Shown: positions 5,643 to 20,521 of the stretch, in pieces
Position numbering within the stretch: position 1 is the stretch's first letter
Layout of the letters: every line of letters starts with the position of its first letter
Virus record (IMG/VR): IMGVR_UViG_3300048597_000242
Span: 1 to 22,097 of that record
Strand: one strand, 5' to 3'
Length of the DNA stretch: 22,097 bases
Source of the DNA: a virus
Notes under the pieces: model-generated
The model's input: only the letters and a program-made list of their open reading frames with translations
What the model was told of the DNA's origin: nothing
Database searches by the model: none
Position numbers and translations under genes: made by a program

Positions 5643-5894
5643 ATGTTTACCTTTCCGACTGACCTCGACTTCGCCCAGGCCCTGTCCGTCGCCGAGGCCG
5701 CCGCCGTGCTGTTCTCGCAGAAGATCGTCGAGACCACCGGCGAGCCCGCGCCCGGCGCCGTGCTGGTGCACGACCCGCACCTGGCGCTGCGCATCCTGCA
5801 GCAGGCCGCCCGCACCGCCGGCAACCCCCGCGTCAAGGCCGCTGCTTCCGTCGGATCGCCGCGTAGCCCACTACGGCGAAGCGGGGTCGCCTGA
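5643..5894 (+). CDS. First protein of the PL operon, unknown
   Basis: An 83-aa protein I do not recognise. The ATG at 5643 follows a GGAGG site by five bases and sits just downstream of PL; a longer reading from 5598 would start inside the operator and is rejected. Residues 9-60 look helical ('FAQALSVAEAAAVLFSQKIV'). The last residues, 'GSPRSPLRRSGVA', are encoded by a palindromic element (5859-5884), so the original C-terminus may have been replaced or extended by its insertion. The stop is followed after one base by the next ATG. By position it is the λ N slot, but no Arg-rich antiterminator motif is present. Confidence 0.7.
   Translation: MFTFPTDLDFAQALSVAEAAAVLFSQKIVETTGEPAPGAVLVHDPHLALRILQQAARTAGNPRVKAAASVGSPRSPLRRSGVA
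5859..5884. repeat. GNA-bulge palindrome, copy 1
   Basis: CCGC-GTA-GCC, loop CACTAC, GGC-GAA-GCGG: two stems separated by GTA facing GAA. It lies in the last codons of the gene at 5643. Confidence 0.6.
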
Positions 5895-5895
5895 C

Positions 5896-5994
5896 ATGGC
5901 CATGTGGGACGTCTGGATCGTTGCCGCCGCCGTTGTCGCGCTCGGCCTCGCCGTCACCGCCGCCAGCATCCGGAGGTGGCTCCATGGAGAGTGA
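5896..5994 (+). CDS. 32-aa membrane peptide
   Basis: The product is MAMWDVWIVAAAVVALGLAV followed by TAASIRRWLHGE: one hydrophobic helix (about residues 4-23) with a positively charged tail. It starts one base after the previous stop and its last 11 bases overlap the next gene, so it is embedded in the operon. No strong ribosome site is evident, suggesting translation by reinitiation. Function unknown; one of several tiny membrane proteins in this phage (others at 2872 and 8730). Confidence 0.55.
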   Translation: MAMWDVWIVAAAVVALGLAVTAASIRRWLHGE

Positions 5995-6484
5995 CACCAC
6001 TTTTGCCGACCGGCCCCCTCGGGAGGCCATAGCCGGCAACGCCGGCGACGGCCCCACCCCGATCAGCCTCGGCCGCCCGACGCTCGACCTCGCGCGGACC
6101 GCGTCCGGCGAAGCCTCCGAAGGAGAGCGTAGCCGGATGACGCTGGTCCCGGCCCCGCCCGTTCCCGAGCCGGAGCGGCGGTTCAGCTGGTGGAAGGAAA
6201 CCGGCATGGACAACCGCACCGTCCGCTACCTGATCCGCGACGAGAACGGCAACCACGTCGCCACCTGCGGCCTCGAGCACCAGGCCCAGGACCTGATCGA
6301 CCTGCTCAACTTCGCGATCCGCGCCGAAGCCAACATCGACGATTTCGAGGCCCCGCTCACCGGCCTGCGCGAGGACCTGCACGAGGCCCGCGTCGCCGGC
6401 AAGGGCAGGGTCGCCATCGGCCGCATGAACGTCCGCCTCGACGATATCTGGAAGTCCATCGGCAGAATTCGAGGCCGGGTATGA
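5984..6484 (+). CDS. Unknown early protein with repeat-derived N-terminal half
   Basis: Read from ATG 5984 (GGAGG seven bases upstream, overlapping the previous gene) the protein has 166 residues. Residues 1-74 are low-complexity, Pro/Gly/Glu-rich and include a palindromic element (6104-6137, encoding about residues 41-52). Residues 75-166 look like an ordered domain starting MDNRTVRYLIRDENGNHVAT and containing 'CGLEHQAQDLIDLLNFAIRA'. An ATG at 6206 with its own AAGGAAA ribosome site would give just this 92-aa domain. Either the gene has two starts or the N-terminal part is an insertion that happened to stay open. Stop and next start overlap (ATGA). Function unknown. Confidence 0.65.
   Translation: MESDTTFADRPPREAIAGNAGDGPTPISLGRPTLDLARTASGEASEGERSRMTLVPAPPVPEPERRFSWWKETGMDNRTVRYLIRDENGNHVATCGLEHQAQDLIDLLNFAIRAEANIDDFEAPLTGLREDLHEARVAGKGRVAIGRMNVRLDDIWKSIGRIRGRV
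6104..6137. repeat. GNA-bulge palindrome, copy 2
   Basis: TCCGGC-GAA-GCCTCC, short loop, GGAGAGC-GTA-GCCGGA. The outer 6-bp stem is perfect, the inner one has a one-base bulge. In coding sequence, in the low-complexity half of the 5984 gene. Confidence 0.6.
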
Positions 6485-6732
6485 AAGTCACTTTTACGGA
6501 CGTGCCGCTGTCGCACTTCGCCGGCCGCAACCCGCGCGGCGCGCTGATCCAGACCAAGCAGGGCAAGCGCATCCTCGCCATGGCCCAGCGGGCCATGGCC
6601 CTGGGCGGTTCCGTCCACGTGGAAACCCGGATCGATGATGCCTCCATGAAAACGAGCCGGGATCAGATCACCGGCACGGTCTACGAGCGCATCACCGCCA
6701 CCATCGACACCAGCCCGGAGCCTGCCGCATGA
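6481..6732 (+). CDS. Unknown 83-aa early protein
   Basis: Starts MKVTFTDVPLSHFAGRNPRG, with ATG overlapping the previous stop, and its own stop overlapping dnaN (ATGA in both cases). The middle ('GKRILAMAQRAMALGGSVHV') is helical and basic and the end has a β-like 'VYERITATIDTSP' segment. It could be a small DNA-associated protein because it is co-translated with the clamp gene, but there is no recognised motif. A longer reading from 6190 is an out-of-frame shadow of the previous gene. Confidence 0.7.
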   Translation: MKVTFTDVPLSHFAGRNPRGALIQTKQGKRILAMAQRAMALGGSVHVETRIDDASMKTSRDQITGTVYERITATIDTSPEPAA

Positions 6733-8009
6733 CCCGCACCGCCACCAAGGAAAGGCCGGCCACGCCCGGCGAAGCTCCCCCGGGGAGCGAAGCCGGGTTC
6801 GCATTCACCCTCCCCGCTGGCGCGTTCGCCGCCGCCGTCGGCAAGGCCTGCGCCGTGGTCTCCGGCCGGGTCACTATCCCGATCCTGTCGCATGCCCTGC
6901 TGCGGCTCGACGCGTTCGGCGTGCTGCACGTCATGGGCACCAATCTCGACCAGGTCGTCGAGGCGGCCGCGTCGACAACCCACAGGCATGTCGTCTCCGG
7001 CGCCATCACCGTGCCCGCGCTCGACCTCAAGGACGCGCTCGGCCATTTGAAGCCGGCCGAGGACGTGTCCGCCGTGCTTGACCCGAACCGTGCCCTGCTG
7101 GTGCTGAAGCAAGGCCGCACCACCTACAAGCTGCCGACGCTGCCGGCGGACGATTTCCCGCTGGTCGCCGAGATCGCCGGCAAGACCGCCGCCTTCGACG
7201 TCGACGCCGCCGCCCTGGCCGGCGCTCTCCGGCAGGTCGAGATGGCCGCCTCCACCGAGGAAGCCCGGTTCTACCTGAACGGCGTGTTCTTCGATTTCAA
7301 CGCGCCCGCGCCCGCGGCCGGAGCAACTTCCGTGCTGCTGGTCTCCACCGACGCCCACCGCCTGCACAAGGCCGCGCTGGCGCTGCCGGACGGCGCCCCG
7401 GCGCCAGATGCCGGTTTCTCCTTCATCCTGCCCAGCGCCGCCGTGCGGCCGCTGCTCGCCGCCTGCGACGGCCCCGCCGCCGGTCACCGCCTGTCGCTTA
7501 CCCTGGGCGGCGCCAAGCTGCGCATCGACGCGCCTGACGCCAAGGGCGGGCCGGTGGTGCTGACCACCAAGCTGATCGACGGCACCTTCCCCGACTGGCG
7601 ACGCGTGGTGCCGCAAGACCCGCCCAACCGGGTCGCCGCCGACCGCGACGAGCTGCTCGCCGCCGTCGAGCGGGTGGGCATCGTCCAGGGTGCCCAGATG
7701 AACAGCGACAACGCGAAAAGGCGCACGGCCGCCATCAAGCTGTCCTTCGCCGACGGCGAACTGCTGCTGTCCAACCGCGACCCGAATACCGGCGAGGAAG
7801 CCGACAGCGCCTGCGCCTGCTCGCTGCTCGCCGGCCACCCCGGCGAGGTCGGCTTCAACGCCGCCTACCTGGCCGCCGCCCTGCGCTCGTTCGGCGCCGC
7901 CGACAGCATCGAGATCGCCTGGACCGACGCCGGCGGACCGGCGCTGTTCACACGCCACGGCGCAGCCGGCGACGCCGACGCCCGCGTCGTCATGCCGATG
8001 CGGTTCTAG
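6729..8009 (+). CDS. dnaN: Phage-encoded DNA polymerase sliding clamp (DnaN homologue)
   Basis: A 426-aa protein that aligns by eye along the whole length of bacterial DNA polymerase III β: start of domain 1 'FAFTLPAGAF' with 'VTIPILSHALLRL' (about 48-60), 'YKLPTLPADDFP' at 133-144, the domain 2 'ARFYLNGVFFD' at 179-189, 'TTKLIDGTFPDWRRVVPQ' at 279-296 and the terminal 'VVMPMRF'. The terminal MPMR(L/F) contributes to the pocket that binds clamp partners, so it probably still binds polymerase. It is longer than E. coli DnaN (366 aa): an N-terminal extension of about 22 residues, partly encoded by a 33-bp palindrome, and extra loops around 190-200, 222-228 and 296-302. The ring encircles DNA and tethers polymerase; here it may recruit the host replicase to phage DNA. 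No clamp loader or polymerase is seen in the window. Confidence 0.93.
   Translation: MTRTATKERPATPGEAPPGSEAGFAFTLPAGAFAAAVGKACAVVSGRVTIPILSHALLRLDAFGVLHVMGTNLDQVVEAAASTTHRHVVSGAITVPALDLKDALGHLKPAEDVSAVLDPNRALLVLKQGRTTYKLPTLPADDFPLVAEIAGKTAAFDVDAAALAGALRQVEMAASTEEARFYLNGVFFDFNAPAPAAGATSVLLVSTDAHRLHKAALALPDGAPAPDAGFSFILPSAAVRPLLAACDGPAAGHRLSLTLGGAKLRIDAPDAKGGPVVLTTKLIDGTFPDWRRVVPQDPPNRVAADRDELLAAVERVGIVQGAQMNSDNAKRRTAAIKLSFADGELLLSNRDPNTGEEADSACACSLLAGHPGEVGFNAAYLAAALRSFGAADSIEIAWTDAGGPALFTRHGAAGDADARVVMPMRF
6765..6797. repeat. GNA-bulge palindrome, copy 3 (in dnaN)
   Basis: CCCGGC-GAA-GCTCCCC, one-base centre, GGGGAGC-GAA-GCCGGG: 13 perfect base pairs per side interrupted only by GAA facing GAA. 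It encodes 'PGEAPPGSEAG' in the extension before the conserved clamp sequence begins. Confidence 0.7.
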
Positions 8010-8013
8010 CGTT

Positions 8014-8265
8014 ATGGACCTGATCGCAACCGGAAAGGCGCTTTGCCAGGGCAGTTGCGGCCTGGTTGACGTCGCCGATCTGATTCCCGACGCCAATGAC
8101 CCGCCTGGGCGCTGCCCAAGTTGCGGCGGGCAGACCTGCCAATGCTCGTTTTGCGGCGAAACAGCCCAGGCCAAGCACGGCGAAAACCAACCCACCTCTG
8201 TCATCCCGGCGGCCAGTCCTGCGAAGCCCACCGGGCGAAGCGGGAAGGCCGGGACCCAGACTTGA
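8014..8265 (+). CDS. Small zinc-ribbon-like protein ending in a REP
   Basis: An 83-aa protein starting four bases after the dnaN stop, MDLIATGKALCQGSCGLVDV. It has cysteines at 11 and 15 and a dense group 'CPSCGGQTCQCSFCGE' (about residues 34-49), typical of a zinc ribbon or knuckle. From about residue 62 onward ('SVIPAASPAKPTGRSGKAG') the coding sequence is a REP element carrying a second, nested palindrome, and the stop codon TGA lies inside the REP. The original C-terminus was therefore probably lost or replaced. Close linkage to dnaN and gapR suggests a role in phage DNA metabolism, but nothing more specific is supported. Confidence 0.7.
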   Translation: MDLIATGKALCQGSCGLVDVADLIPDANDPPGRCPSCGGQTCQCSFCGETAQAKHGENQPTSVIPAASPAKPTGRSGKAGTQT

Positions 8266-8266
8266 C
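8199..8266. repeat. REP element interrupted by a second palindrome
   Basis: The outer parts TGTCATCCCGGC (8199-8210) and a 23-base right part (8244-8266, beginning GAAGGCCGGGACCCAG) are identical to the intact copy at 8549-8583. Between them are 33 extra bases (8211-8243). Confidence 0.85.
8217..8245. repeat. GNA-bulge palindrome, copy 4 (nested in REP)
   Basis: TCCTGC-GAA-GCCC, loop ACC, GGGC-GAA-GCGGGA: both stems pair (one T·G) and GAA faces GAA. It accounts for nearly all of the extra sequence in the REP at 8199. Confidence 0.7.
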
Positions 8267-8283
8267 AATCAAGGAGGCCCTCC

Positions 8284-8526
8284 ATGGCTGACACCAAAGG
8301 CATCGCCGCCGGACAACTGAAAACCCTGATCGAGCGCATCGAGCGCCTCGAGGAGGAAAAGAAGGGCCTCGCTGAAGACATCGCCGACGTCTACGCCGAG
8401 GCCAAGGGCAACGGCTTCGACCCCAAAGTCATGCGCCAGGTGATCCGCCTGCGCAAGATGGAACGGGGCGACCGCCAGGAACTCGAGGCCCTCATGGACC
8501 TCTACATGTCGGCGCTGGAGGGCTAG
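8284..8526 (+). CDS. gapR: GapR-family nucleoid protein (DUF2312)
   Basis: An 80-aa protein matching GapR along its whole length: 'GQLKTLIERIERLEEEKKGL' (about 10-29), 'DVYAEAKGNGFDPKVMRQVI' and 'RLRKMERGDRQELEALMDLY'. GapR of Caulobacter forms a dimer of coiled coils that clamps overtwisted DNA ahead of replication forks and helps topoisomerases; the family is largely confined to alphaproteobacteria and their phages. A strong AAGGAGG site precedes the ATG. Co-operonic with dnaN, it may help phage replication or compete with the host protein; the role is inferred. Confidence 0.92.
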   Translation: MADTKGIAAGQLKTLIERIERLEEEKKGLAEDIADVYAEAKGNGFDPKVMRQVIRLRKMERGDRQELEALMDLYMSALEG

Positions 8527-8733
8527 ATGGGCAAGACCCGCTTCACCTTGTCATCCCGGCGAAGGCCGGGACCCAGACTTGACGGGTTTTTTGACCGCGA
8601 GGTGGTCGAGTTGCTAACCGGCGTGAGTCGGCTGGCTATTACTACCGGCGTGGTGCGATTTGGGAAACTGCCGATCGCCCTGAGCCCGGAGGTCCACGCG
8701 ACACTGCTTGCCATGAAGGCGATCAAGCCATGA
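8527..8733 (+). CDS. Small unknown protein with a translated REP in its N-terminus
   Basis: A 68-aa protein. The ATG directly follows the gapR stop and has GGAGG five bases upstream, so this start is well supported. Residues 8-19 ('LSSRRRPGPRLD') are encoded by an intact REP (8549-8583). The remainder, from 'GFFDREVVELLTGVSRLAIT' to the end, looks like a normal small helical protein. A GTG inside the gene after the REP could be the ancestral start, but it lacks a good ribosome site. The stop overlaps the next ATG (ATGA). Function unknown. Confidence 0.65.
   Translation: MGKTRFTLSSRRRPGPRLDGFFDREVVELLTGVSRLAITTGVVRFGKLPIALSPEVHATLLAMKAIKP
8549..8583. repeat. Intact REP element
   Basis: TGTCATCCCGGC followed by GAAGGCCGGGACCCAG and CTTGAC; hairpin CCCGGC/GCCGGG. 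Sequences of this type are widespread REPs in proteobacterial genomes. This copy is inside coding sequence, read in a different frame from the copy at 8199. Confidence 0.85.
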
Positions 8734-8870
8734 TCCCCGGTATCCGCGAATGCCTGGGCTACATCGTCGCCGGCGTCGCCGCCCTGTTCATGCTGGCGCT
8801 GATCGTCCTGGTGGTCATCCCGCTGCGCGCCCTGAACTGGCTGTGGCGCGCCGTCCGGCGGTCCCTGTGA
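8730..8870 (+). CDS. 46-aa membrane peptide
   Basis: MIPGIRECLGYIVAGVAALF continues with a long hydrophobic stretch to about residue 31 and ends 'LNWLWRAVRRSL'. One transmembrane helix (about 11-32) followed by an aromatic and Arg-rich juxtamembrane end. The start overlaps the previous stop (ATGA), so it is coupled. Function unknown. Confidence 0.65.
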   Translation: MIPGIRECLGYIVAGVAALFMLALIVLVVIPLRALNWLWRAVRRSL

Positions 8871-8893
8871 CCGCCCCGCCGGGAGAATAGCCC

Positions 8894-9052
8894 ATGGCCA
8901 CCCGCGCTGTCGGCAAGCCGACGCCGTCGCATTCGGGCCTGCTGGCCCTGGCGGCGGCGCTCGGCCGGCAGGCGGCGCGCGAGGACCACGCGGCCCGCAA
9001 GGTGGCGGCGGAGCAGAAGCCGGACAACAACGGAGATGATCGCCATGACTGA
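8894..9052 (+). CDS. 52-aa basic protein
   Basis: A short gene with a GGGAGAA ribosome site before ATG 8894. The product begins MATRAVGKPTPSHSGLLALA and has a helical Arg/Ala-rich middle ('GRQAAREDHAARKVAAEQK') and an Asp/Asn-rich end. Its stop overlaps the next ATG by 8 bases. I do not recognise it; size and charge would suit a small nucleic-acid-associated or modulator protein, without direct support. Confidence 0.55.
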   Translation: MATRAVGKPTPSHSGLLALAAALGRQAAREDHAARKVAAEQKPDNNGDDRHD

Positions 9053-9247
9053 CCGCGCCCCCTCGACTCCGTAGACGACGCCCTGAGGCTGGTCGGCTCC
9101 GGCAAGATCGTGAACCTGCGGATATACGCGGACGGCTCTGCGACCTGCGCCATAACCGATGATGGCTATTGCGAGGATGGAGACACGGTTTTCCCCACCG
9201 CCGCCATTGCCCTGACCATCGCCATTTTGGAGGACAGCCGTGGATGA
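9045..9247 (+). pseudogene. Frameshifted small early gene
   Basis: ATG 9045 opens 'MTDRAPSTP' and hits TAG at 9072. Shifting frame at the five-C run (9058-9062) restores a plausible protein: after 'MTDRAP' it reads LDSVDDALRLVGSGKIVNLR, then 'IYADGSATCAITDDGYCEDG' and a helical end to TGA 9245-9247. The 'YADGSA...DDGY.EDGDTVFPT' pattern looks like a real small phage protein. One extra C in the run would repair it. It may be a true disruption, a sequencing error in a homopolymer, or programmed slippage; disruption or error is more likely because no slippery signal beyond the C run is seen. The end overlaps the next GTG start. Confidence 0.6.
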
Positions 9248-10070
9248 CCTTGTGAAGCAGGCCCGCGACCACGCTGCGGGGATGGGGTGGGTGCCGGTCG
9301 ATCAGGTGCCCGAGGAATGGAAGGATGGGCGCGAGCTGCTGGCTTACTGGAGTGGCAGCAAAGTCCACGCTATCGTCGAGCATTGGGCTGGGAAGTGGAT
9401 CGACGCCGATAATCTGGAAGTCGGACCGCCCACGCATCTGCGCGACCCAGACGATTTACACTCCGACCCGACCGCCGCCCTGCTGGTGTCCCTCGCGGAC
9501 GCCTATGAAGCGCCTATTCCCATGCTGCTGTTCTGCCCGAAATGCGGACTGCAGCATATCGACGCGCCCGAGGATGGGTTTCACGAGGGTGCTGACGCGC
9601 AATCTGGCGCGTGGTCACCCAGATGGGACAACCCGCCGCACCGTTCGCACCTCTGCCTTGGCTGCGGACATATCTGGCGCCCATGCGACCGTTACACGAC
9701 TGGCGTGGCGGCTATCGAGACAGCCGGGAAGGCTGATGGCTCGCCAGTTCCGTCCCTAGCGGACGAGGTGGTGCGGCTACGGGGCGATCTTGCCCACGCC
9801 TACGCTGAATCGCAAGCCAATCAGACCGCAGCAAGAACCGTGATGGGTGGCTTTATGGACCTTCGAGAGACGCACGCCGCCATGACCGACGCGGTGGTGC
9901 GGCTGCGGGAGGCGAGGGCCGTGCTTCACGAGATATGGGGCTGTTCCTACACATCCACGAAAACAGAGCGCGTAATGACGTTGCCGCTCGATCTTTTTAA
10001 CCGGATGCATCTCGTATTTTTTCCAGATCAGGGCCGCCGCGCGCTGGCTGGCGAGCAGGGAGACGGGTGA
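9240..10070 (+). CDS. Zinc-ribbon phage protein with DUF551-like N-terminus
   Basis: A 276-aa protein starting at GTG 9240 after a GGAGG site. Three parts are visible. Residues about 15-60 ('GWVPVDQVPEEWKDGRELLA...W') resemble DUF551, a small β-domain of phage proteins. Residues about 98-165 carry 'CPKCGLQHIDAPE' and 'NPPHRSHLCLGCGHIWRP', two CxxC pairs that make a zinc ribbon well known from phage proteins. Residues 170-240 are helical ('LADEVVRLRGDLAHAYAES', 'TDAVVRLREARAVLHEI'). It looks like a mosaic of common phage modules. Molecular role unknown. The stop overlaps the next start (TGATG). Confidence 0.75.
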   Translation: MDDLVKQARDHAAGMGWVPVDQVPEEWKDGRELLAYWSGSKVHAIVEHWAGKWIDADNLEVGPPTHLRDPDDLHSDPTAALLVSLADAYEAPIPMLLFCPKCGLQHIDAPEDGFHEGADAQSGAWSPRWDNPPHRSHLCLGCGHIWRPCDRYTTGVAAIETAGKADGSPVPSLADEVVRLRGDLAHAYAESQANQTAARTVMGGFMDLRETHAAMTDAVVRLREARAVLHEIWGCSYTSTKTERVMTLPLDLFNRMHLVFFPDQGRRALAGEQGDG

Positions 10071-10402
10071 TGGCCAACAACATCATCGGCATTCGGGTGG
10101 TCAAGACGTGGGAAACCTGCGAACGCACCACCTATTACATTGAACTGCGCACCGATGAGGGCTTCACGATGACGCCGAGCAGCCATCGCACCAGAAGCAT
10201 CTACACCGACTTTGTGGGGTTGACCAAGGATGAGGCCCGCGACCGCGCACTGATCGACGCGAACACGTGGGCCGACTTCCTCGGTCTCACCGTCGATGCC
10301 TACGTCGAGGATGGAGTTGAGCGCCAGCCGTCTATGCACTTCGAGACCTACACCACCCGGCGCAAGCTGGCCGCAAGGAAGGACACAACCCATGACCAAT
10401 GA
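10070..10402 (+). CDS. Unknown early protein
   Basis: A 110-aa protein, MANNIIGIRVVKTWETCERT, started from ATG 10070 (a GTG three bases earlier is possible; the GGGAGA site fits the ATG). It shows a β-rich first half ('TTYYIELRTDEGFTMTPSSH') and an acidic helical middle ('GLTKDEARDRALIDANTWAD'). No known motif. It overlaps both neighbours by a few bases, so it is co-translated with the zinc-ribbon gene and the 10392 gene. Confidence 0.65.
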   Translation: MANNIIGIRVVKTWETCERTTYYIELRTDEGFTMTPSSHRTRSIYTDFVGLTKDEARDRALIDANTWADFLGLTVDAYVEDGVERQPSMHFETYTTRRKLAARKDTTHDQ

Positions 10403-11621
10403 CCCCATAGACGAAGCGCGGCGGGTGCTGGAAGCCTACGGCTTCGAGATGCACCCGACCATCAAGCGAGCGTTCGAGAACCTCCTGTCCCACGTCGAGC
10501 GCCCGACCGCCCCGGTGGACGCAGAGGTGGAGCGGCTGGCCGAGCGGCTGGACAACCTGACATCCATGAGCGGAGTTTGGGGAAATGACCTTGCGGACGC
10601 CGCCGCCATGCTCCGGTCCCTAGCCGCCGAGCGGGATGATCTGAGGGAGGAACTTCGCATCCTGACCTGTTCGGATGAGGAAATTCTTGCCGACGTGCTG
10701 CCCGAGGATATCGAGGCAACCAAGGAAATCGTTGAGCGCGCATTGGCGGATGCTCGAAGGCACATCGCGCTGACTAGCCAAGTGACGGACGCGGAGGTGG
10801 CTGGTCTGCTCGAACGCGGCGGATACACGAGCCAGCTTTCGCCCGATCTTCTTCATCGACTAATTACCGATGCGTTGACCATGGTGCAAAAGATCTGGTA
10901 CCAGCAGACCGCCCCGGTGACGGGTGACCGGGCGGAGTTCGAGAAGCGATTAGAGGCTATGAAACGCGATCCGAACACACCGCTTCGTCACCAGATTCTA
11001 GCAACGGACACGCTTGCCCTCCTCGAAGCCGCCGACCGCCGCGAGATGGCGCTGGCCGAGGCGATTGCGGAGATTATTGGGCGCGTCAAGATGGCGGATG
11101 AACACGATGCAAGTCAATCTGGAACCAGATGTTTCAAGGAGCGGATGCTCACAAAGGAAGCAAAATCAATGACTACATTACGCGAGAGGTTGTGGAAGTC
11201 GGCAAGCTCCCTTGAGGACACTGCCATCGACCCTGCTTTGCTGTCCTATTTTCACAGCATGGCACAGAACGAGGCCCATGATCTTGTCCTAACCCTTTTC
11301 CTGGCTGCTGCCGATAGGGAAGGTGTGAACAAGGCATTTCTTGCGCGCCGGATGGACAAGTCCCCGGAACAAGTCACACGCTGGCTGGGGGGCTCCGGCA
11401 ACTGGACACTCGAAACGCTGACCAACCTTTTGGTCGCACTCGGCTACAAGCCGAAGTTCAGCGCTGAACGCCTCTCCGCTATGCGCCAGGACAACGAGCA
11501 CCACGACTTGGCGCACCCCGCCATCGTCGTCAACGTGACGAGTTCAGATTCATCGAGTGAAGCTAAATCCCTCAAGCTGTTGGCAGATCATGGCGATGGT
11601 GTTTTAACGGGAGCCGTATGA
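10392..11621 (+). CDS. Apparent fusion: phage coiled-coil protein + XRE-type HTH protein
   Basis: A 409-aa reading frame from ATG 10392. Residues 1-250 are of the phage Ead/Ea22 sort: repeated short helices such as 'EVERLAERLDNLTSMSGVWG' and 'AAMLRSLAAERDDLREELRI'. Residues 260-409 look like a separate protein starting MTTLRERLWKSASSLEDTAI, with an internal ATG at 11169 preceded by AAGGAAG, and a helix-turn-helix 'NKAFLARRMDKSPEQVTRWL' followed by GGSGNWTLETLTNLL. That layout is common in stand-alone XRE regulators of alphaproteobacteria. The linking stretch ('SQSGTRCFKERMLTKEAK') looks accidental. I think a formerly separate HTH gene was brought into frame, and it may still be translated separately from 11169. 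The end overlaps the next gene. Confidence 0.7.
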   Translation: MTNDPIDEARRVLEAYGFEMHPTIKRAFENLLSHVERPTAPVDAEVERLAERLDNLTSMSGVWGNDLADAAAMLRSLAAERDDLREELRILTCSDEEILADVLPEDIEATKEIVERALADARRHIALTSQVTDAEVAGLLERGGYTSQLSPDLLHRLITDALTMVQKIWYQQTAPVTGDRAEFEKRLEAMKRDPNTPLRHQILATDTLALLEAADRREMALAEAIAEIIGRVKMADEHDASQSGTRCFKERMLTKEAKSMTTLRERLWKSASSLEDTAIDPALLSYFHSMAQNEAHDLVLTLFLAAADREGVNKAFLARRMDKSPEQVTRWLGGSGNWTLETLTNLLVALGYKPKFSAERLSAMRQDNEHHDLAHPAIVVNVTSSDSSSEAKSLKLLADHGDGVLTGAV

Positions 11622-12373: not shown

Positions 12374-12384
12374 TTTGCTTCTCC

Positions 12385-14288: not shown

Positions 14289-14313
14289 ACCGGCATTTAT
14301 GGAGGCAAGAGCA

Positions 14314-14664: not shown

Positions 14665-14684
14665 TAGACCGATTCCCTGAAACG

Positions 14685-14727: not shown

Positions 14728-14764
14728 AGTTAACCGCGCTGAAATCCTTGGGAGGCCGACCCGC

Positions 14765-14808
14765 CCGGCGAAGCCTTGGCGAAGACGGAAGCCTCGGCGA
14801 AGCCCGTC
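14765..14808. repeat. GNA-bulge palindromes, copies 5 and 6 in tandem
   Basis: CCGGC-GAA-GCC-TT-GGC-GAA-GACGG (14765-14788; one outer mismatch) directly continued as GACGG-AA-GCC-TC-GGC-GAA-GC-CCGTC (to 14808), sharing the middle arm. The last bases include the stop codon of the 14807 gene. Bases 14728-14764 show nothing else. Confidence 0.55.
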
Positions 14809-15397
14809 AGGGCGTGTTCGACGGCAACAGCGACTGCGCCTTGCCCAGATAGTCCGATCCGCCCTCGCTGGTGCGGGTCGCCGCCAGGCCGGTGGCGAAG
14901 AACCGTGCCCGCTCGGCCGCGCTCTCGGCCTTGCCGAACACGCCGGTCAGGTCGGACAGGCTCCAGTTGTTGCGCACGCCGAAGCTGCCGAACACGCTGC
15001 GGCCGTCGGCGATGTCCATGCTCTCGGTGACGGTCACCGGCACGCCGTCGATCGTCGTCTGGCTGACGGTCGTCGACTTCCAGGTGCCGTTGAGGGTGCG
15101 GACTTCCTTGGTCACCTTGCCGTCGCCCTTGTCGAGCTTGTAGAGGTACGTGTTCGGGATCCGCACGCAGTTGCGCTCGCCGTCCAGGTACACCCCGGGC
15201 GTCGGATAGGAGCCGCAGGCGCGGTCCTTGAAGCCGGCCGAGACCAGCGCCGACTCCATGTAGAAATAGGTCGCGGTCTGGTCACCGGCGCGCGCCGGAC
15301 TCCAGCCCGACAGCACCAGCGCCAGGAACACCAGCACGCCCGCCCAGATCAGCAGCGCGCCTTCGATCTTGTTCATCATCCAGTCCAGCCAGGTCAT
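14807..15397 (-). CDS. Membrane-anchored protein, last gene of the late operon
   Basis: A 196-aa protein. MTWLDWMMNKIEGALLIWAG begins a hydrophobic segment (about 13-31) ending 'SGWSPARAGDQ', readable as a signal peptide cleaved after ARA or as an N-terminal anchor. The rest is exported in type: 'YFYMESALVSAGFKDRACGS', 'GVYLDGERNCVRIPNTYLYK', Thr/Ser-rich β-like stretches and two cysteines. AAGGAAGG precedes the ATG inside the upstream lipoprotein gene. Being in the lysis block and envelope-directed, it might be a spanin-like or superinfection protein; no family is recognised. A palindrome provides its stop codon. Confidence 0.7.
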   Translation of the reverse strand: MTWLDWMMNKIEGALLIWAGVLVFLALVLSGWSPARAGDQTATYFYMESALVSAGFKDRACGSYPTPGVYLDGERNCVRIPNTYLYKLDKGDGKVTKEVRTLNGTWKSTTVSQTTIDGVPVTVTESMDIADGRSVFGSFGVRNNWSLSDLTGVFGKAESAAERARFFATGLAATRTSEGGSDYLGKAQSLLPSNTP

Positions 15398-15602
15398 GGC
15401 AAATCCTTCCTTGGATTGTTTTCGAGATCAGCGCCGCCGACCCCAGGTTGGCGGTCACCATGGCGTAGGTCGTCCGCGTCTCGCCGCACGCCATCGGCGG
15501 AAGCGTCGAGCAGCCCGCGCAGCCGATCGAGAGCAACAGCGAGGCCGCCGCCGAAACGCGTGAAGCGCGGGAACTTCGGAAACCGCGCGAACGCCACGGC
15601 AT
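15282..15602 (-). CDS. Lysis-cassette lipoprotein (Rz1/spanin candidate)
   Basis: A 106-aa frame starting at ATG 15602, overlapping the holin stop by one base (TGATG). A basic start (MPWRSRGFRSSRASRVSAAA) leads to 'SLLLSIGCAGCSTLPP'; C31 in AGCSTLPP is the likely lipidated residue (C28 is also possible). The Pro after the lipobox is usual for outer-membrane spanin subunits. The last 39 residues overlap the 14807 gene in another frame and look like its shadow, so the useful protein is about 65 residues. An alternative frame from 15597 (67 aa) lacks a lipobox and is less convincing. Confidence 0.6.
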   Translation of the reverse strand: MPWRSRGFRSSRASRVSAAASLLLSIGCAGCSTLPPMACGETRTTYAMVTANLGSAALISKTIQGRICHDLAGLDDEQDRRRAADLGGRAGVPGAGAVGLESGARR

Positions 15603-15757
15603 CAGGCCGTCTTGTTGGGCGTGGCCCAGACGGCGATGGTGGTGATCACGACCACCACGGCGTCCTGGAACTGCGCCGGCACGTCGAAGCCCTGCGCCGC
15701 CGCGATGGCGGCGACGGCGGCCACCGCTGCGGCGATGGCCTTGTTGTAGCGGGTCAT
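15602..15757 (-). CDS. Holin
   Basis: A 51-aa protein, MTRYNKAIAAAVAAVAAIAA then AQGFDVPAQFQDAVVVVITT and IAVWATPNKTA. Two hydrophobic segments (about 7-22 and 32-46), a charged start and the 'P-N-K' end are like small holins of alphaproteobacterial phages. GGAGAAAG precedes the ATG. It lies between the M15 endolysin and the lipoprotein, the normal holin place, and would form the lesion that lets endolysin reach the cell wall. Too short for the ordinary gene finders, but strongly supported by context. Confidence 0.8.
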   Translation of the reverse strand: MTRYNKAIAAAVAAVAAIAAAQGFDVPAQFQDAVVVVITTIAVWATPNKTA

Positions 15758-15768
15758 GAACTTTCTCC

Positions 15769-16170
15769 TCAATAGGACCAGAGCGCGGGGCGCGGATAGT
15801 CCGGCGCCGCGAGCAGGTCGAGATGGATGAAGCGGGCCGTGCCCTTCTGCTGCACGCCGATGCCAGTCACCCCCAGCCGGATGGCGTGGCCGACCAGCGC
15901 CAGCGCCGCAGCGCCCTCGATCGCGATGTCAACCGCCCGTCCCGTGGTGTGCGGGCCGGTGTCGCCGGTCGGCGAAATGCGGCGGTTGTAGGAAGGCGCG
16001 CGGTAGCCCGACGTCACCGGCAGCGGCCGGCCGACGGCCGCGCGCAGCGCCTCGAGGATGTCGAGCAGCGCCGGGTCGACCAGCAGCGCGCCGGTGCCCT
16101 TGCAGGCGAACTCGCGCGGCTGGAAATGCGGCCAGCGGCCGGGCTTCCACTGGCTGGCGTCGGTGATCAT
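15769..16170 (-). CDS. Endolysin, peptidase M15 family
   Basis: A 133-aa single-domain peptidase M15 (VanY/Ply-like, Peptidase_M15_3). Zinc ligands are visible as H74 and D81 in 'HTTGRAVDI' and H116 in 'FIHLDL'; 'VTSGYRAPSYNRR' at 52-64 is the usual substrate strand. It would cut the D-Ala-containing peptide of peptidoglycan. No signal peptide, so it needs the holin encoded just downstream. Length is normal for the family. Confidence 0.92.
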   Translation of the reverse strand: MITDASQWKPGRWPHFQPREFACKGTGALLVDPALLDILEALRAAVGRPLPVTSGYRAPSYNRRISPTGDTGPHTTGRAVDIAIEGAAALALVGHAIRLGVTGIGVQQKGTARFIHLDLLAAPDYPRPALWSY

Positions 16171-16183
16171 GGCAAGGCTCCGC

Positions 16184-16600
16184 TCAGAATTCGTCGCAGC
16201 CGGCGATGCGGTAGGTCAGCCCGGTCATTTCCTCGTAGTCGGCCATCAGCGCGTTCAGCCGCCGCAGCGCGCCGGGCCTGATCGCCTCCATGTCGCCGCC
16301 GTCGATGCCGTCCAGCGCCGCGCACTGCTCGCGCCTGGCGTCGTACAGCTCGGCCGAGATCAGCCGCACCTCGATCCGCTTGGCCCGCGCGTCCAGCCGC
16401 GCCAGGTCGGCGGCGTTGGCGAATCCGGCCACCCAGGGCAGCATGCCGCAAGCCCACAATATGTGCACCGTCAGCACCGAGCCGATCGCCAGCACCACGT
16501 AGAACACCGCCCAGCGCCACGCCTGGCGCGTGTCCTCGTCGGCCGTGCGCTTCGGCGGCACGATCGAGCGCACCACGGGTATGAAGTCGATCGCCCCCAA
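16184..16600 (-). CDS. Membrane protein of the lysis region
   Basis: A 138-aa protein beginning at TTG 16600 (GAGGAGG site five bases upstream; no ATG fits). One strong transmembrane helix (about 30-52, 'WAVFYVVLAIGSVLTVHILW') and a second weaker hydrophobic stretch, followed by a helical charged domain ('LARLDARAKRIEVRLISAEL') and a short end with a cysteine. An inner-membrane anchor plus periplasmic coiled coil is the layout of an i-spanin, which would pair with the lipoprotein at 15282; an antiholin is the alternative. Assignment is by topology and position only. Confidence 0.65.
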   Translation of the reverse strand: MGAIDFIPVVRSIVPPKRTADEDTRQAWRWAVFYVVLAIGSVLTVHILWACGMLPWVAGFANAADLARLDARAKRIEVRLISAELYDARREQCAALDGIDGGDMEAIRPGALRRLNALMADYEEMTGLTYRIAGCDEF

Positions 16601-16623
16601 GCGGCCCTCCTCGTCAGGATGGA

Positions 16624-17109
16624 TTAATCCTTAAGCGCCGCGGCCAGGGCGCGCAGCGCGGCGCGCGTGCCCGGGTCCTTCACCTGCCCCAGCGCCGCCT
16701 CCACCCGGCTGCGCCGGGCTTCTTCCCGCTCGGCCTTCGGCAGGCGCTTGTCGATCCGCCGCAGCAGCGGCTTGAACGGCCAGCACTCGACGAACAGATG
16801 GTGGTTCTCGCCAGGCTTCAGCGCCAGCCGGCGCAGCCCTTTGCCACGCAGGCCGTGGAACAGCACCTCGGCATCCTCGGGCAACCCGTCCAGCACCAGT
16901 TCGCCGTCCTGCTCGCTGATCGTCACCGGCATGTCCGGCCGCTCGGCGCAGGTGATCCCCATCGGGTCGCTCATATGCGTGTCCGGGTGGCACTCGTCGG
17001 GCACCGGCCGCCAGGCGCAGTTGCCCGGCAGGTTCGGCAGCGTGCCGGCCGAGCTGCGCCGTGTCTCCAGGATCTGCCCGGTCGTGGTGTCGTAGATGGC
17101 GACTTTCAT
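16624..17109 (-). CDS. Late protein between tail tip and lysis genes, unknown
   Basis: A 161-aa protein, MKVAIYDTTTGQILETRRSS, with a β-rich first two thirds ('PVTISEQDGELVLDGLPEDA') and a charged helical end ('KRLPKAEREEARRSRVEAAL'). This place is often taken by tail-fibre or assembly proteins; the opening 'AIYDTTTGQIL' is like start regions of short phage tail-accessory proteins. No firm family. It is preceded by a spacer carrying a palindromic element. Confidence 0.65.
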   Translation of the reverse strand: MKVAIYDTTTGQILETRRSSAGTLPNLPGNCAWRPVPDECHPDTHMSDPMGITCAERPDMPVTISEQDGELVLDGLPEDAEVLFHGLRGKGLRRLALKPGENHHLFVECWPFKPLLRRIDKRLPKAEREEARRSRVEAALGQVKDPGTRAALRALAAALKD

Positions 17110-17133
17110 GAGGACCTCTTGTCCGGCTCGTCA

Positions 17134-17155
17134 CGCCGTAGCTTTAGCGAAGGCG
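17134..17155. repeat. GNA-bulge palindrome, copy 7
   Basis: CGCC-GTA-GC, loop TTTA, GC-GAA-GGCG, in the 50-base spacer between two late genes. Flanks match copy 8: CTCGTYACGCCGTAGC on the left and GCGAAGGCGGA on the right in both. Confidence 0.75.
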
Positions 17156-17159
17156 GAAG

Positions 17160-19439
17160 CTATCTCTTGATGACGAAGATGCGGGCCTGCAGGTTTGATG
17201 CCGTACCGGTCCAGCCCGCCTCCAGCGAGGTCACAGACAGCCGGTAGGTCGGATTGGCCGTGGCGATGTCCGGGTCGATGAACGGCACCACGTTGGACTG
17301 GTCGCCAAGTTCGTTGAACAGCACCGGCGCGCCCTGCAGCGGAAACTTGTCGCTCGGCCCCACGTCGACCCGCTGCACCCGGCACTGATAGGCCGTGCGG
17401 TCGCCAAAGCCGGTGCCGCCGATGGTGAACATGAACGTCACGTCGACGTCGTAGCCAGCCGGCGCGGTCACCGCCAGGTCCCACAGCGTCGTTGTGCCGC
17501 CCTCGGTCAGCGCCACCGTGGTCTTGTCGGTGCCGGTGTTGTCGGTCACCGCGTTCGGGTTGATCTGCGCCGTGTTGACGCTGTCGAGCACCGCCAGGTC
17601 GCCCTGGTTCAGGATCGTGCCGGCGATCGTCGTGTCGGTGATCGTCACGCTGCCGGACGTCGACCAGGCCGAGACCACGAAGGTGCTGTTGATGTGCGCC
17701 ACCCGCACCTTGTAGGTCGTACCCTTCACCAGGCCGGTGATGATCGCCCCGTCGCCGCTGCTTGCCGGCACCGTGCCATAGGGCAGCCAGGTGGTGCCGT
17801 TGTCCGGCGAAAGCTGCACGTCGCTCGAGATGATGAACGGGCTCGGGTCGGCCCATGTCACCTTGATCGCCGGGATCTTCGACCCGTCCGACCCGACGAA
17901 CGTCGCCGCCACTGCCGTCAGGCTGGCCGGCGCCGACAGGTCGAGCGGGATCGTCACCACCGGCCCACCGCCCGCCATCGCCGTGTAGCCGGCCTCGTGC
18001 GACGCCGCTGTCCAGGAATAGACCGCGCTGGCCTCTTCCTTGACGTCCAGGTCGATGGTGTAGGCATCGCCCTCGCTGTCGGGCGAGTTCAGCCGCCAGC
18101 CATGCACCCGCATCACCTTTGACGACCACGAGAAGCTGCCGTGCGTCACCTGGATCGTGTCCCACACCCGGATGTCGAGGCCCTTCAGGTTGACCCGGAT
18201 GGTGCCCGAGCCCCGCTGGCGCGCCTGGTTCTTGGCGATGCGCGCGATCCGCTGCGCCATCCGGTGGTCGGTGGTGAACGGCAGGTCGAGCGTCAGCCAG
18301 AATATCTCGCCGCCGTCCTCGGTCACCGCCGTCGAGTCGGTCACGACCGGGTAGTCGGCCGGCTGGTAGGCGTTGCCGGTGTCGATGAACAGGCCCTTGA
18401 CCTGGTTCGCCAGCTCGCGCCGCGACGGCGCCTTCTTCCACTCCACCGAGACGATGTCGCCTTCGGTGAACGTCGCCGCCGGGCTGTCATAGGCGCCCGG
18501 ATGGAACCGGAACACCCCGCCCGAGAACGTCAGCGTGCCCGCCATCGAGCGGGTCATCAAATCCATCACCTCCTCGTGCGACATCGACGAGTTGATGATC
18601 GCATTCACCGAGTAGCGCAGGATCGTCCCGCCGCCGGTTACCGAGACCGTCTCGTCGCAGATGTTCGCCGCCGCCTGGATGTTGGCCATGTCGAAGGCGC
18701 TCAGCGGGAAGCCCGGGCCGAGATAGCTGTCGCGCAGATAGTCCAGCGCGCACAACACCGGGTTGACGCTCCACGCCCAGGTCGATTCCGTCGCCGCCCG
18801 GTGCGAGCCGGACCCGCCGGACACCGTGCTGTCCAGCCGTGGATCGTAGACCTTCTTGCCCTTGACCAGCACCGAGATGTTGGGCAGGCCGGTCGGATAG
18901 ACGTCCCGGTCGAACAGCAGCCGGTGCACCTGGTAGGCGCAGCCGCGCAGCCGGTGGTTGCTGGTCCAGCGGCTCGAGGCCGCGTCGAGGGTGGCGTCGA
19001 CGGTCTGCGAGGCGGCGCCCAGGTGCTCGTAGCGCCAGGCGAAATTCGGATAGGGCGCCGTCGTCGCCGCGTTCGACGAGAACGCGATCAGCTCGTCGTT
19101 GTAGTAGACCCCCTGGAAGCTGTCGATCTCGTGGTCGGCGTAGACGTTGACCAGCCAGACGTTCTCGTTGTCGGTGCCGGTGCTTTCCACATAGACGATG
19201 GTGCCGCCGGTCCGGCGCAGGCCGTAGATGTACTCCCGCGGCGCCGCCGGATCGCGGCTCATGTTGATGACCGTGCCCTGGTCCCCGGCATTGTAGCCGC
19301 CGGCAATCAGCTTGCCGATGGTGTTGACCAGGAAGCCGCTCACGGCGGTGACCACGATCCCGGCGATGATCCCGGCCGTGGCCGCGCCGATGCCGATATT
19401 CACCAGAGCAGCGGCGACGAACGCGACGACCGGCGGCAT
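17160..19439 (-). CDS. Tail-tip / host-specificity protein (λ gpJ-like)
   Basis: A 759-aa protein. The start at ATG 19439 overlaps the previous stop (TGATG); a longer reading is out-of-frame shadow. Residues 4-45 are hydrophobic ('VVAFVAAALVNIGIGAATAG'), then 'YIYGLRRTGGTIVYVESTG' and 'VYADHEIDSFQGVYYND', the opening usual in gpJ/TipJ proteins. The middle has the hub-like parts ('VSVEWKKAPSRRELANQVKG'), and about 500-600 form a fibronectin type III domain ('PASLTAVAATF...IKVTWAD...GTTYKVRVAHINS'). The final 150 residues are β-rich and variable in type, a likely receptor-binding end. Shorter than λ gpJ (about 1130 aa). Confidence 0.85.
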   Translation of the reverse strand: MPPVVAFVAAALVNIGIGAATAGIIAGIVVTAVSGFLVNTIGKLIAGGYNAGDQGTVINMSRDPAAPREYIYGLRRTGGTIVYVESTGTDNENVWLVNVYADHEIDSFQGVYYNDELIAFSSNAATTAPYPNFAWRYEHLGAASQTVDATLDAASSRWTSNHRLRGCAYQVHRLLFDRDVYPTGLPNISVLVKGKKVYDPRLDSTVSGGSGSHRAATESTWAWSVNPVLCALDYLRDSYLGPGFPLSAFDMANIQAAANICDETVSVTGGGTILRYSVNAIINSSMSHEEVMDLMTRSMAGTLTFSGGVFRFHPGAYDSPAATFTEGDIVSVEWKKAPSRRELANQVKGLFIDTGNAYQPADYPVVTDSTAVTEDGGEIFWLTLDLPFTTDHRMAQRIARIAKNQARQRGSGTIRVNLKGLDIRVWDTIQVTHGSFSWSSKVMRVHGWRLNSPDSEGDAYTIDLDVKEEASAVYSWTAASHEAGYTAMAGGGPVVTIPLDLSAPASLTAVAATFVGSDGSKIPAIKVTWADPSPFIISSDVQLSPDNGTTWLPYGTVPASSGDGAIITGLVKGTTYKVRVAHINSTFVVSAWSTSGSVTITDTTIAGTILNQGDLAVLDSVNTAQINPNAVTDNTGTDKTTVALTEGGTTTLWDLAVTAPAGYDVDVTFMFTIGGTGFGDRTAYQCRVQRVDVGPSDKFPLQGAPVLFNELGDQSNVVPFIDPDIATANPTYRLSVTSLEAGWTGTASNLQARIFVIKR

Positions 19440-19864
19440 CAGCCCACCCGCCAGGCGAACCTGGCCCCGGTCGTCGGCAGCCGGATCGGCCCCTCCGCGC
19501 CCGGCCCGACGCATTCGGCGCCTATGCAGGTCAGCAGCGTCGGCCCGAGCGCCGTCACCGCCAGCACCGGGTCGCCCCGCCGCGCCATGGCGGGCGCCGC
19601 CGGCTTGCCGAACTTGCGCGCCATGGTGTGATAGAGCGAGCCGGCGCCGATTTCCTTCAGCGCCGCCGACGCCGACGCCGCGTCATGGTACTGCCCGCGA
19701 AACTCCGCCATCGGGTCCGCGCCGGTCATCGCCTTGCAATGGTCCGACCATGCCGTGGTGCAGTCATGCTTGCCCCAGCGGAAGGTTTTTCCGGCCTGCG
19801 CCTCGATCGAGGCCGCCAGCCGCTCCGGCCAATCTTCCCGGCGGGTGATGGCTTTCCGGGTCAT
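19439..19864 (-). CDS. DUF6950 / NlpC-like tail protein
   Basis: A 141-aa protein with 'FRWGKHDCTTAWSDHCKAMT' at 28-47 (C35 in the NlpC/P60 nucleophile position), 'HTMARKFGKP' and 'ARRGDPVLAV' further on. This is the DUF6950 pattern. It stands in the slot of λ gpK or the gene transfer agent cell-wall peptidase. A catalytic His after the GD motif is not visible, so it may be an inactive or divergent form. Overlaps by 4 bases with the previous gene and 1 base with the next. Confidence 0.8.
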   Translation of the reverse strand: MTRKAITRREDWPERLAASIEAQAGKTFRWGKHDCTTAWSDHCKAMTGADPMAEFRGQYHDAASASAALKEIGAGSLYHTMARKFGKPAAPAMARRGDPVLAVTALGPTLLTCIGAECVGPGAEGPIRLPTTGARFAWRVG

Positions 19865-20481
19865 TTCTTGGCCTGCTTCTTCAAATTCTTGCGCGACTGC
19901 TTGGTCTGCTCGCCGTCGTTCTGGCCCCAGTTGATGGCGATGTCCTGGATCGCCGGGATGTATTCCAGCCCGATGTCGCCCGAATAGCGCGACTGCTGGT
20001 CCATGTCGGTCCGGCGCCGGTCGTTGGCGCGCTCGAGCACCCGCATCCAGCTCTCGCAGTTGACCGTGATCCGCCCGGTTTGCCCCTGGTCGGTGACCTC
20101 CATGAAGTCCATCACCCCGCCGAAGATCTGCGGCGGCGTCGAGATCAGCGCCAGGGTCGCCGTGTTGAACAGCCCCAGCCAGATTCGGGCCGCGCGCCCC
20201 TGGTAGTTCTCGGTCAGCGCCGTCGCCAGCAGCGACGTGTCGGTGATGTCCAGCGTCAGCTGCACCCCGGTCGCGACGATGTCGGCCTTTTCCTCGATCA
20301 CCGAGATGCCGCCCAACTCGCCGACACCGGTGAACGTCGCGCCCTCCGGCCCGGTGATCGAGCCGATGCCGGTCCAGGCGCGCACGACGCCGGACGAGAA
20401 GTCCAGCTCGACGAAATACGCCGCCACCACCCGCGAGGCCGCCGCCGCGTTGGCGTTGTCGGTCGTCAGGCCCCTGCTCAT
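19861..20481 (-). CDS. Minor tail protein (DUF2163-slot, baseplate hub type)
   Basis: A 206-aa protein. 'RVVAAYFVELDFSSGVVRAW' (about 17-36), 'ATFTGVGELGGISVIEEKAD', 'TLDITDTSLLATALTENYQG', and near the end 'RRRTDMDQQSRYSGDIGLEY' form a conserved pattern of siphophage tail proteins found immediately before the NlpC-like gene. It ends in a very basic tail. By order it corresponds to gene transfer agent ORF13 (DUF2163) and λ gpL; the family name is inferred from order and pattern. Confidence 0.8.
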   Translation of the reverse strand: MSRGLTTDNANAAAASRVVAAYFVELDFSSGVVRAWTGIGSITGPEGATFTGVGELGGISVIEEKADIVATGVQLTLDITDTSLLATALTENYQGRAARIWLGLFNTATLALISTPPQIFGGVMDFMEVTDQGQTGRITVNCESWMRVLERANDRRRTDMDQQSRYSGDIGLEYIPAIQDIAINWGQNDGEQTKQSRKNLKKQAKK

Positions 20482-20499
20482 TTTATGTCGCCCTCGTTA

Positions 20500-20521
20500 C
20501 GCCGTAGCCTTGGCGAAGGCG
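20500..20521. repeat. GNA-bulge palindrome, copy 8
   Basis: CGCC-GTA-GCC-TT-GGC-GAA-GGCG, in the 42-base spacer between two minor tail genes. The wider sequence shares 28 of 31 bases with copy 7. Confidence 0.75.

Follow-up and report, generated by a model that had tools for sequence, protein, structure and literature searches.

The DNA considered here comprises the entire IMG/VR record IMGVR_UViG_3300048597_000242 (22,097 bases; hereafter, the window), a viral sequence in which tail genes lie on the minus strand and early genes, including dnaN, lie on the plus strand. The window also encodes a serine recombinase containing both resolvase and recombinase domains. No close relatives of this phage were detected among named phages or, with two proteins serving as queries, among viral contigs, and only tail proteins of 25-49% identity were found, in nine of 190 alphaproteobacterial genomes. 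Scattered across the window are copies of a short palindrome built to a single design, namely an outer stem, a GNA triplet, an inner stem closed by a small loop, a second GNA triplet and the returning arm of the outer stem, such that the two triplets face each other in a 3x3 internal bubble. Examination of these copies and of their counterparts in bacterial genomes revealed the element to be a real and widespread palindrome that behaves as a mobile unit, resembling repetitive extragenic palindromes (REPs) and following a clear insertion rule.

The window was scanned for Watson-Crick-paired palindromes comprising an outer stem of at least four pairs, GNA, an inner stem of at least three pairs, a loop of no more than eight bases and a facing GNA. 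This strict scan returned four matches (5859, 6765, 17134 and 20500), as compared to the 0.09 expected from 100 dinucleotide shuffles, in support of the original prediction that such palindromes form a family in the window. When G-T pairs were allowed, 8217 joined these matches, with the shuffle expectation being 0.61. Each of the remaining 15 NxN triplet classes, with the same class being demanded on both sides, yielded no or one match, versus four for GNA. Likewise, a scan for C-GNA-G closure gave five matches on the plus strand and none on the minus strand, where 300 shuffles gave a mean of 0.23 and a maximum of two. Two covariance models were also employed, one including five of the window copies (R1) and the other built without window sequences (R2). 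R1 recovered seven copies at E≤0.001, whereas R2 recovered five at E≤0.0011 (20493, 17127, 14759, 8212 and 6760), with the R2 background being such that a minus strand match at 8099 (E 0.011) outranked the copies at 6099 and 5852, and a match at 19571 (E 0.09) also outranked the latter. On the basis of the strict scan, the C-GNA-G scan and R2, a chance origin for the window palindromes was rejected. No Rfam model matched the window at its gathering score, with one sub-threshold match being seen elsewhere in the window, and assignment to a known RNA family was set aside. Eight copies had been originally listed; of the seven elements to which these correspond, five are firm, one is probable (6099) and one is doubtful (5859), because the strict scan supports this last copy while the independent model, R2, does not separate it from noise.

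All seven copies present their GNA letters on the plus strand, even though the genes of the window run both ways. The weakest copy, at 5852-5887 (listed earlier as 5859), reads CCGC-GTA-GCC(CACTAC)GGC-GAA-GCGG, occupies the 3' terminus of a small plus strand open reading frame (ORF) and scored E 0.001 with R1 and E 0.2 with R2. The copy at 6099-6138 (6104), TCCGGC-GAA-...-GTA-GCCGGA, contains a bulged inner stem, falls within an open frame with a possible start at 5984 and scored E 0.001 with R1, of whose training set it is not part, and E 0.022 with R2. The copy at 6760-6798 (6765), CCCGGC-GAA-GCTCCCCCGGGGAGC-GAA-GCCGGG (R2 E 0.0011), is found in an N-terminal extension of dnaN, upstream of the Pfam DnaN match that begins at residue 26, and that at 8212-8245 (8217) splits a TGTC/CGTC-type REP at its GAA loop (R2 E 9e-4 for 8212-8246). 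The copy at 14759-14790 (14765), in an intergenic spacer, has two mismatched outer pairs and scored E 4.8e-5 with R1, again from outside the training set, and E 7.8e-5 with R2. This locus had been described as a tandem pair, yet only one element is present, with the partial hairpin that follows, extending to about 14808, being by reading without a GNA/GNA bubble. Finally, copies at 17127-17158 (17134) and 20493-20524 (20500), each preceded by the tetranucleotide foot CTCG, occupy most of the tail-operon spacers at 17110-17159 and 20482-20523, respectively. The former, whose outer stem contains one additional A, reads CGCC-GTA-GCTTTAGC-GAA-GGCG (R2 E 1.1e-6), and the latter reads CGCC-GTA-GCCTTGGC-GAA-GGCG (R2 E 1.4e-7). 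The locations agree with those originally described, namely coding ends, a dnaN extension, spacers of the tail operon and the inside of a REP.

Beyond the window, the element takes the form of a canonical unit of about 30 nt, CYTG foot plus TCCGCC-GNA-GCYTTRGC-GAA-GGCGGA. The foot is CTTG or CCTG (also CTCG and others), the outer arm is TCCGCC or CCCGCC, the 3' arm is GGCGGA, and the part between GNA and GAA is either GCCTTGGC, GCTTTAGC or GCTTCAGC, or else an inner hairpin of greater length. A 20-mer based on the 20500 copy and its core, GCCGTAGCCTTGGCGAAGGC, was found without mismatch in 17 viral contigs and at no fewer than 117 places in bacterial genomes, Bradyrhizobium isolates included. 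As judged by record titles, the unit is present in at least 12 phyla, with Verrucomicrobia, Acidobacteria, Bacteroidetes, Planctomycetes, Omnitrophota, Marinimicrobia, Nitrospinota, Nitrospirales, Acidimicrobiia, Zipacnadia, Myxococcota, deltaproteobacteria, alphaproteobacteria and several Patescibacteria appearing among the matches listed; since most records are metagenome-assembled, single assignments may be wrong. The canonical 30-mer gave no match among 50,697 records of named phages at E≤0.5 and six partial matches among 72,556 plasmid records.

In 41 genomes, all pre-selected as bearing copies, pattern matches numbered 339, as against eight for a reversed control. The pattern was next considered by group. 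Among 116 Patescibacteria genomes, 184 matches were obtained versus one in the control, with 41 genomes being positive. In 145 Verrucomicrobiota genomes, where a looser pattern was used, 146 matches in 43 genomes compared with 35 control matches in 29 genomes; as the best row showed at least four of five outer pairs in 32 of these 43 genomes, positives are put at about 32 of 145. Of 115 alphaproteobacterial genomes, 20 were positive with R1 at E≤0.01. Copy number reached 44 pattern matches in one genome (G039) and 21 model matches in another (G293), and many genomes held one to three copies. In five viral contigs (L005, L008, L013, L016 and L017), the element occupies the same sequence context with diverged flanks and, since this context is shared, and in four of the five is one frame of a small gene, this copy is taken to be inherited.

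The stems of the element covary, as had been predicted, while C-GNA-G stays fixed. In a Verrucomicrobiota set of 109 distinct sequences, gathered by a pattern making no pairing demand and with apparent chance matches retained, the five free outer pairs formed in 427 of 545 cells, as compared to 349 (sd 7) when the 3' arms were re-dealt among copies, and the inner pairs formed in 175 of 218 cells versus 154 (sd 3). In 126 anchored copies, the three free distal outer pairs were Watson-Crick in 308 of 378 cells, as against 204 upon re-dealing (maximum 225 in 1,000 permutations). In an alignment of 52 copies, 94.4% of cells were paired versus 80.4% after shuffling, and both sides changed in seven of nine pairs, although these copies had been chosen by a pairing rule and the count is, as such, biased toward structure. 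Folding of adjacent arms into mini-hairpins, rather than into one long hairpin, paired far fewer cells and was rejected. The same anchored outer pairs, read on the GNA strand, included 25 G-T and seven A-C combinations (42 and 33, respectively, when re-dealt). As this asymmetry and the GNA letters both indicate the same strand, they point to the GNA strand as the putative folding strand. A design that is real, covarying and spread over many phyla is thus shown. One correction concerns the triplets, which had been described as GAA or GTA followed by GAA; this is slightly too narrow, in that any of the four bases may stand at N in the 5' GNA triplet, which is closed as C-GNA-G.

Evidence for insertion begins within the window, where the REP TGTCATCCCGGCG^AAGGCCGGGACCCAGACTTGAC stands uninterrupted at 8549-8583 (plus strand) and where a second such REP at 8199-8266 (plus strand), reading TGTCATCCCGGCG / insert / AGGCCGGGACCCAGACTTGAC, contains an extra 33-34 bases, one base being ambiguous. 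These extra bases are the element. The two REPs, of TGTC/CGTC type, lie about 350 bases apart, and one of them forms the end of an ORF at 8014-8265. At the window loci, comparison of filled and empty sites was confined to this internal twin. At three Bradyrhizobium loci (L088, L102 and L287), the element likewise lies within a CGTC-type REP. Sixty Bradyrhizobium genomes were searched for the two halves of the REP ATTGC-GA-GC-GNA-GC-GAA-GCAAT, which we term CGTC-type from its CGTC tag, separated by any 15-45 bases, with the content of the gap left free. This search yielded 73 matches in 27 of the 60 genomes. In 72 of these, the insert was the element (damaged in a few), the one remaining match being two neighboring REPs. 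All 72 inserts were in one orientation and at one bond, with the foot CTTG being seen in 65; lengths were 30 (37 inserts), 33 (18), 31 (11) and other values (six), and no repeated flank indicative of target duplication was visible. The same genomes contain 4,383 intact REPs. The GNA loop of the REP itself takes all four bases, and the element, in several inner subtypes, was present in all four loop variants.

Differently stemmed REPs are split at the same bond in a 2.0 Mb alphaproteobacterial genome, G293 (L305, L308, L313, L314 and L316), with the base before the bond being C in a further case (L315). In the same genome, one copy lies in the loop of a terminator-like hairpin (L310) and another within a different GNA palindrome (L317), and a flank stem of at least six pairs was seen at five of 20 copies, as compared to 0.44 expected.

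The element also appears to insert into itself. When 51 genomes chosen as element-bearing were searched for halves of one element lying 22-50 bases apart, 30 partly overlapping rows were obtained in seven genomes, among which, by reading, 17 distinct loci in four genomes (G005, G109, G183 and G032) represent nests, with six rows showing arrangements of another kind. At one locus (L022), four split left halves precede one whole copy, with every junction being GA^A, and three right halves follow before the contig ends; this nest, at the end of the minus strand, stands after a TGTCATCCCCGCG REP half. GT^A nests were seen at L061, L079 and L118. Similar junctions at L114 fall within repetitive coding sequence and are not proven nests. 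At three loci of G005, the outer copy is of inner type TTCA and the inserted copy is of type CCTTGG, a mismatch of subtypes that argues for insertion rather than duplication. The joint flank CGN^AG was found at nine of 123 anchored copies versus 3.1 expected, some of these not being nests. In repeated cases, therefore, the element is present as an additional 30-33 nt, with a single orientation and no visible target duplication, at the GN^A bond of a C-GNA-G loop belonging to a second hairpin, be this a CGTC-type REP or another copy of the element.

Other copies are found in spacers, at gene ends and just 3' of tRNA and tmRNA genes. Seven of 136 copies lie no more than 60 nt 3' of a tRNA or tmRNA gene, four of them at tmRNAs, as against 0.37 expected, although not all seven are independent, with a single site in two species of Bradyrhizobium accounting for both L046 and L081, and a single genome for both L066 and L077. 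The copies at L046, L077 and L081 lie between tRNA-Ile and tRNA-Ala, as in the spacer of a ribosomal RNA operon, and those at L078, L103, L113, L306, L312, L303 and L070 either abut the 3' end of a tmRNA or tRNA gene or are separated from it by a few bases, with the CCA end of the RNA forming part of the outer arm in several instances. In-frame copies were found in open genes, among them a UvrD helicase gene, where the copy follows the domains, and a phage prohead protease ORF, where it likewise lies downstream of the protease domain. A further apparent insertion, into a polymerase gene (L109), was ambiguous and set aside.

Based on the split and intact REPs and on the nesting of element in element, which bear out the earlier suggestion of a mobile unit, it is probable that the window copies are members of a REP-like family of mobile palindromes, some 30-40 nt in length, that insert at GN^A via a predicted trans-acting enzyme. 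In this process, the GNA strand would fold as single-stranded DNA during replication, with the element being recognized by its foot and bubble. The enzyme would then cut at the foot and rejoin the unit into an exposed GNA loop, presumably acting in trans in a manner akin to that of IS200/IS605-type HUH transposases on hairpin ends. C-GNA-G DNA is known as stable from structural work on short DNAs, namely the d(GCGAAGC) mini-hairpin and the (GNA) duplex. Because the unit itself contains a GNA loop, it would carry its own preferred target. A broader proposal, that the element represents a third tagged REP super-family, defined by a CYTG foot and a C-GNA-G bubble, that makes single-stranded jumps into GN^A loops, nests in itself and passes between phyla and phages under the action in trans of a possibly non-resident enzyme, is more tentative and falls somewhat short of being probable.

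Several observations weigh against the reading of the element as a mobile palindrome targeting GN^A loops. The predicted DNA folding energies of most window copies are ordinary (z -0.03 to -2.87). The foot is variable, being C[TC]TG in 66 of the 126 anchored copies from mixed phyla. In a wider set, only 13 of 197 copies have a flank stem of at least six pairs, as compared to 4.8 expected (permutation maximum 11), and a hairpin loop is, therefore, a preferred rather than the only site. GC skew is slightly negative on the GNA strand (131 copies, 55 positive, p 0.007); as this strand is more often C-rich, the skew fits poorly with a simple preference for the lagging-strand template, although gene direction confounds this measure. 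The constant orientation and bond in Bradyrhizobium could, moreover, reflect the spread of a single composite REP. Finally, in 138 neighborhoods of genes encoding Y1_Tnp transposases, comprising 108 of the 110 matches in element-bearing genomes together with 30 further loci, the element was found beside Y1_Tnp only once (L155), and no Y1_Tnp match was seen in G384 and G398, carrying nine and six copies, respectively, the completeness of these assemblies not being stated.

The point concerning a composite leads to a rival explanation, in which one old insertion into a CGTC-type REP created a compound REP that then multiplied as a whole through the agent that moves CGTC REPs, with the small element not itself being mobile. 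The uniformity of the 72 Bradyrhizobium cases is what such a history would produce, and a parallel exists in the Verrucomicrobiota genome G052, where 16 stretches holding 17 copies all lie within a composite repeat of about 90 bp (L325-L340, at least 16 near-identical repeats of the form AAAAGT...ACTTTT in which the element is one of two hairpins). Yet, the differently stemmed REPs of G293 and of the window carry the element at the same bond, all four loop variants of the REP are filled and with several inner subtypes, and nests combine outer and inner copies of different subtype. Furthermore, by reading, only three of 136 anchored copies (L088, L102 and L127) resemble such REP insertions. Composite spread is accordingly held to be an unlikely account, if one deserving of serious consideration. 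Unlikely too, and a little more so, is movement of the unit by a resident REP-associated tyrosine transposase (RAYT), as raised in the original prediction. A foot tetranucleotide followed by a hairpin with an internal bubble does fit the REP layout as described in the text of PMC6006769, but the foot is CYTG and not GTAG. Of the 41 element-bearing genomes, 30 were considered and 28 of these contained Y1_Tnp, which was also present in 18 of 20 positive versus 25 of 40 zero-count Verrucomicrobiota genomes (chosen from 43 and 102; p 0.034), and in 17 of 22 Patescibacteria with at least three copies versus 30 of 75 without the element (p 0.003). Across all 41 positive Patescibacteria, however, the association (24 of 41 versus 30 of 75) gave p 0.08, and genome size is a confounder, with the difference not being significant within two size classes. 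Physical linkage was poorer still. A loose scan of the 108 neighborhoods returned 14 rows, of which two, both at L155, were taken as the element and 12 as look-alikes, and the other 30 neighborhoods returned three rows, all taken as look-alikes. At L155 (1290-1920), a GTAG-type REP found beside Y1_Tnp holds, by reading, an inverted pair of elements in its loop. No dedicated RAYT for this unit was found across the 138 neighborhoods; given the solitary case at L155 and the two copy-bearing genomes with no Y1_Tnp match, a resident dedicated enzyme is unlikely, and the unit may instead be handled in trans or by another enzyme. A different palindrome, with its own stems (CTGGGGC...GCCCCAG) yet again with a GNA/GNA bubble, was found within about 200 bases of Y1_Tnp in three of the 12 neighborhoods of G011 (L139, L171 and L181) and in only two other loci examined. 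In view of these palindromes, Y1 enzymes may handle the GNA/GNA design, and a link between such enzymes and the design in general is possible. The G011 palindrome reads CTGGGGC-GNA-GC-GNA-GC-GNA-GCCCCAG, with N varying and not all triplets being intact, and is possibly the REP of these Y1_Tnp genes themselves.

Two further alternatives were considered. Were the hairpin a selected RNA or DNA signal, kept as a terminator, a processing site or a determinant of mRNA stability with spread being secondary, the excess of copies 3' of tRNA and tmRNA genes would be expected, as would the tendency of the window copies to lie at gene ends or in spacers. Still, the GNA strand is the coding strand at the four copies from 5859 to 8217 and the template strand at 17134 and 20500, and as such bears no fixed relation to transcription; copies also lie in frame inside genes, and the exact insertions into REPs and into the element itself likewise count against a signal. 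This alternative is considered improbable. The possibility that template switching during replication, a process described in PMC8794818, makes and repairs such hairpins in the absence of any enzyme, with the matching of arms being mutational rather than selected, is considered highly improbable. It would explain how arms remain matched though their sequences differ, but leaves the shared foot, the fixed positions of C-GNA-G and GAA, and an exact 20-mer common to different phyla unexplained.

Comparison with known systems places the mobile palindrome closest to REPs, being of 20-40 bp, present in many dispersed copies per genome and bearing a conserved unpaired tag at one end. Like the CGTC-tagged REPs surveyed in PMC3733652, as presented in the text of that survey, the element is a tagged palindrome with similar stem lengths, intragenic copies and a presence in several phyla, and no linked transposase has been found for either. 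The REP of CGTC type sought in Bradyrhizobium also shares the GNA/GAA grammar of the element. The element differs in having a CYTG foot rather than CGTC (or TGTC/CCTC), in lacking a CCA tail or any other fixed tail, in its two-stage stem of 6+3 bp with a 3x3 GNA/GAA bubble rather than a stem of 8-9 bp with a loop of 4-5 bases, and in inserting into CGTC-type REPs and into itself. Neither CTTG nor CCTG appears as a word in the main text of PMC3733652. With GTAG REPs and REPtrons associated with RAYT (TnpA-REP), the element shares a foot directly before the hairpin, a frequent internal bubble and a high copy number, but the foot is neither GTAG nor GTGG, and members do not flank Y1 transposase genes, save for the single case at L155 and the G011 look-alike. 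Like the subterminal hairpins of IS200/IS605 elements as described in PMC6006769, the element is a hairpin with a foot that is inserted in an oriented manner with no target duplication, yet it encodes no transposase, contains a single hairpin and targets a loop triplet.

In-frame insertion into genes is also known from the Rickettsia palindromic elements (RPEs), compared here by their description in PMC3733652, according to which RPE-4 and RPE-6 are CGTC REPs and RPE-1 is longer. PMC6006769 further describes, in its text, class 3 TnpA hairpins with a CnGA foot as atypical REP-like sequences of Acidobacteria, Planctomycetes and Proteobacteria, with some 600 in one Solibacter genome. The element differs from these by its CYTG foot, although this comparison is by description and the two may overlap in sequence. 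The C-GNA-G heart recalls the d(GCGAAGC) mini-hairpin and (GNA) duplex motif, which is synthetic and not a mobile repeat. Target duplication is typical of a miniature inverted-repeat transposable element (MITE) of a DDE transposon. The 30-33 nt insert, with no such duplication at REP sites, is unlike a MITE, which spans 70-300 bp and is bounded by terminal inverted repeats. In the passages of PMC3733652 and PMC6006769 consulted, no palindrome combining a CYTG foot and a GNA bubble is described, although figures or supplements may contain an earlier sighting. Literature searches at the level of titles and the starts of abstracts returned nothing on such a family, core strings including GNA had no match in the literature text searched, and a shorter core string matched only papers unrelated by title. 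The element is best filed as a new tagged REP-like family.

How CGTC-type and other REPs without a RAYT spread was presented as an open question in a 2013 survey (Di Nocera, De Gregorio and Rocco; PMC3733652). The palindrome considered here offers thousands of natural empty sites, tens of filled ones and one defined bond, and the nesting of element in element records the order of insertion. Filled and empty sites, together with nests, thus allow direct tests of how the element inserts, of which strand acts and of what moves it. Shared by phages and by many phyla, the very small genomes of Patescibacteria among them, a near-identical 30-base unit would, moreover, serve as a sensitive marker of DNA exchange, and some in-frame gene inserts, such as the dnaN extension of the window, would be explained as short mobile palindromes rather than as gene-specific features.

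Two further observations were made. The heptamer GCGAAGC occurs nine times on the plus strand of the window and not at all on the minus strand. At L114 (5874-7790), the element lies in the frame of a repetitive protein of 1418 residues and has been copied along with the protein repeat.

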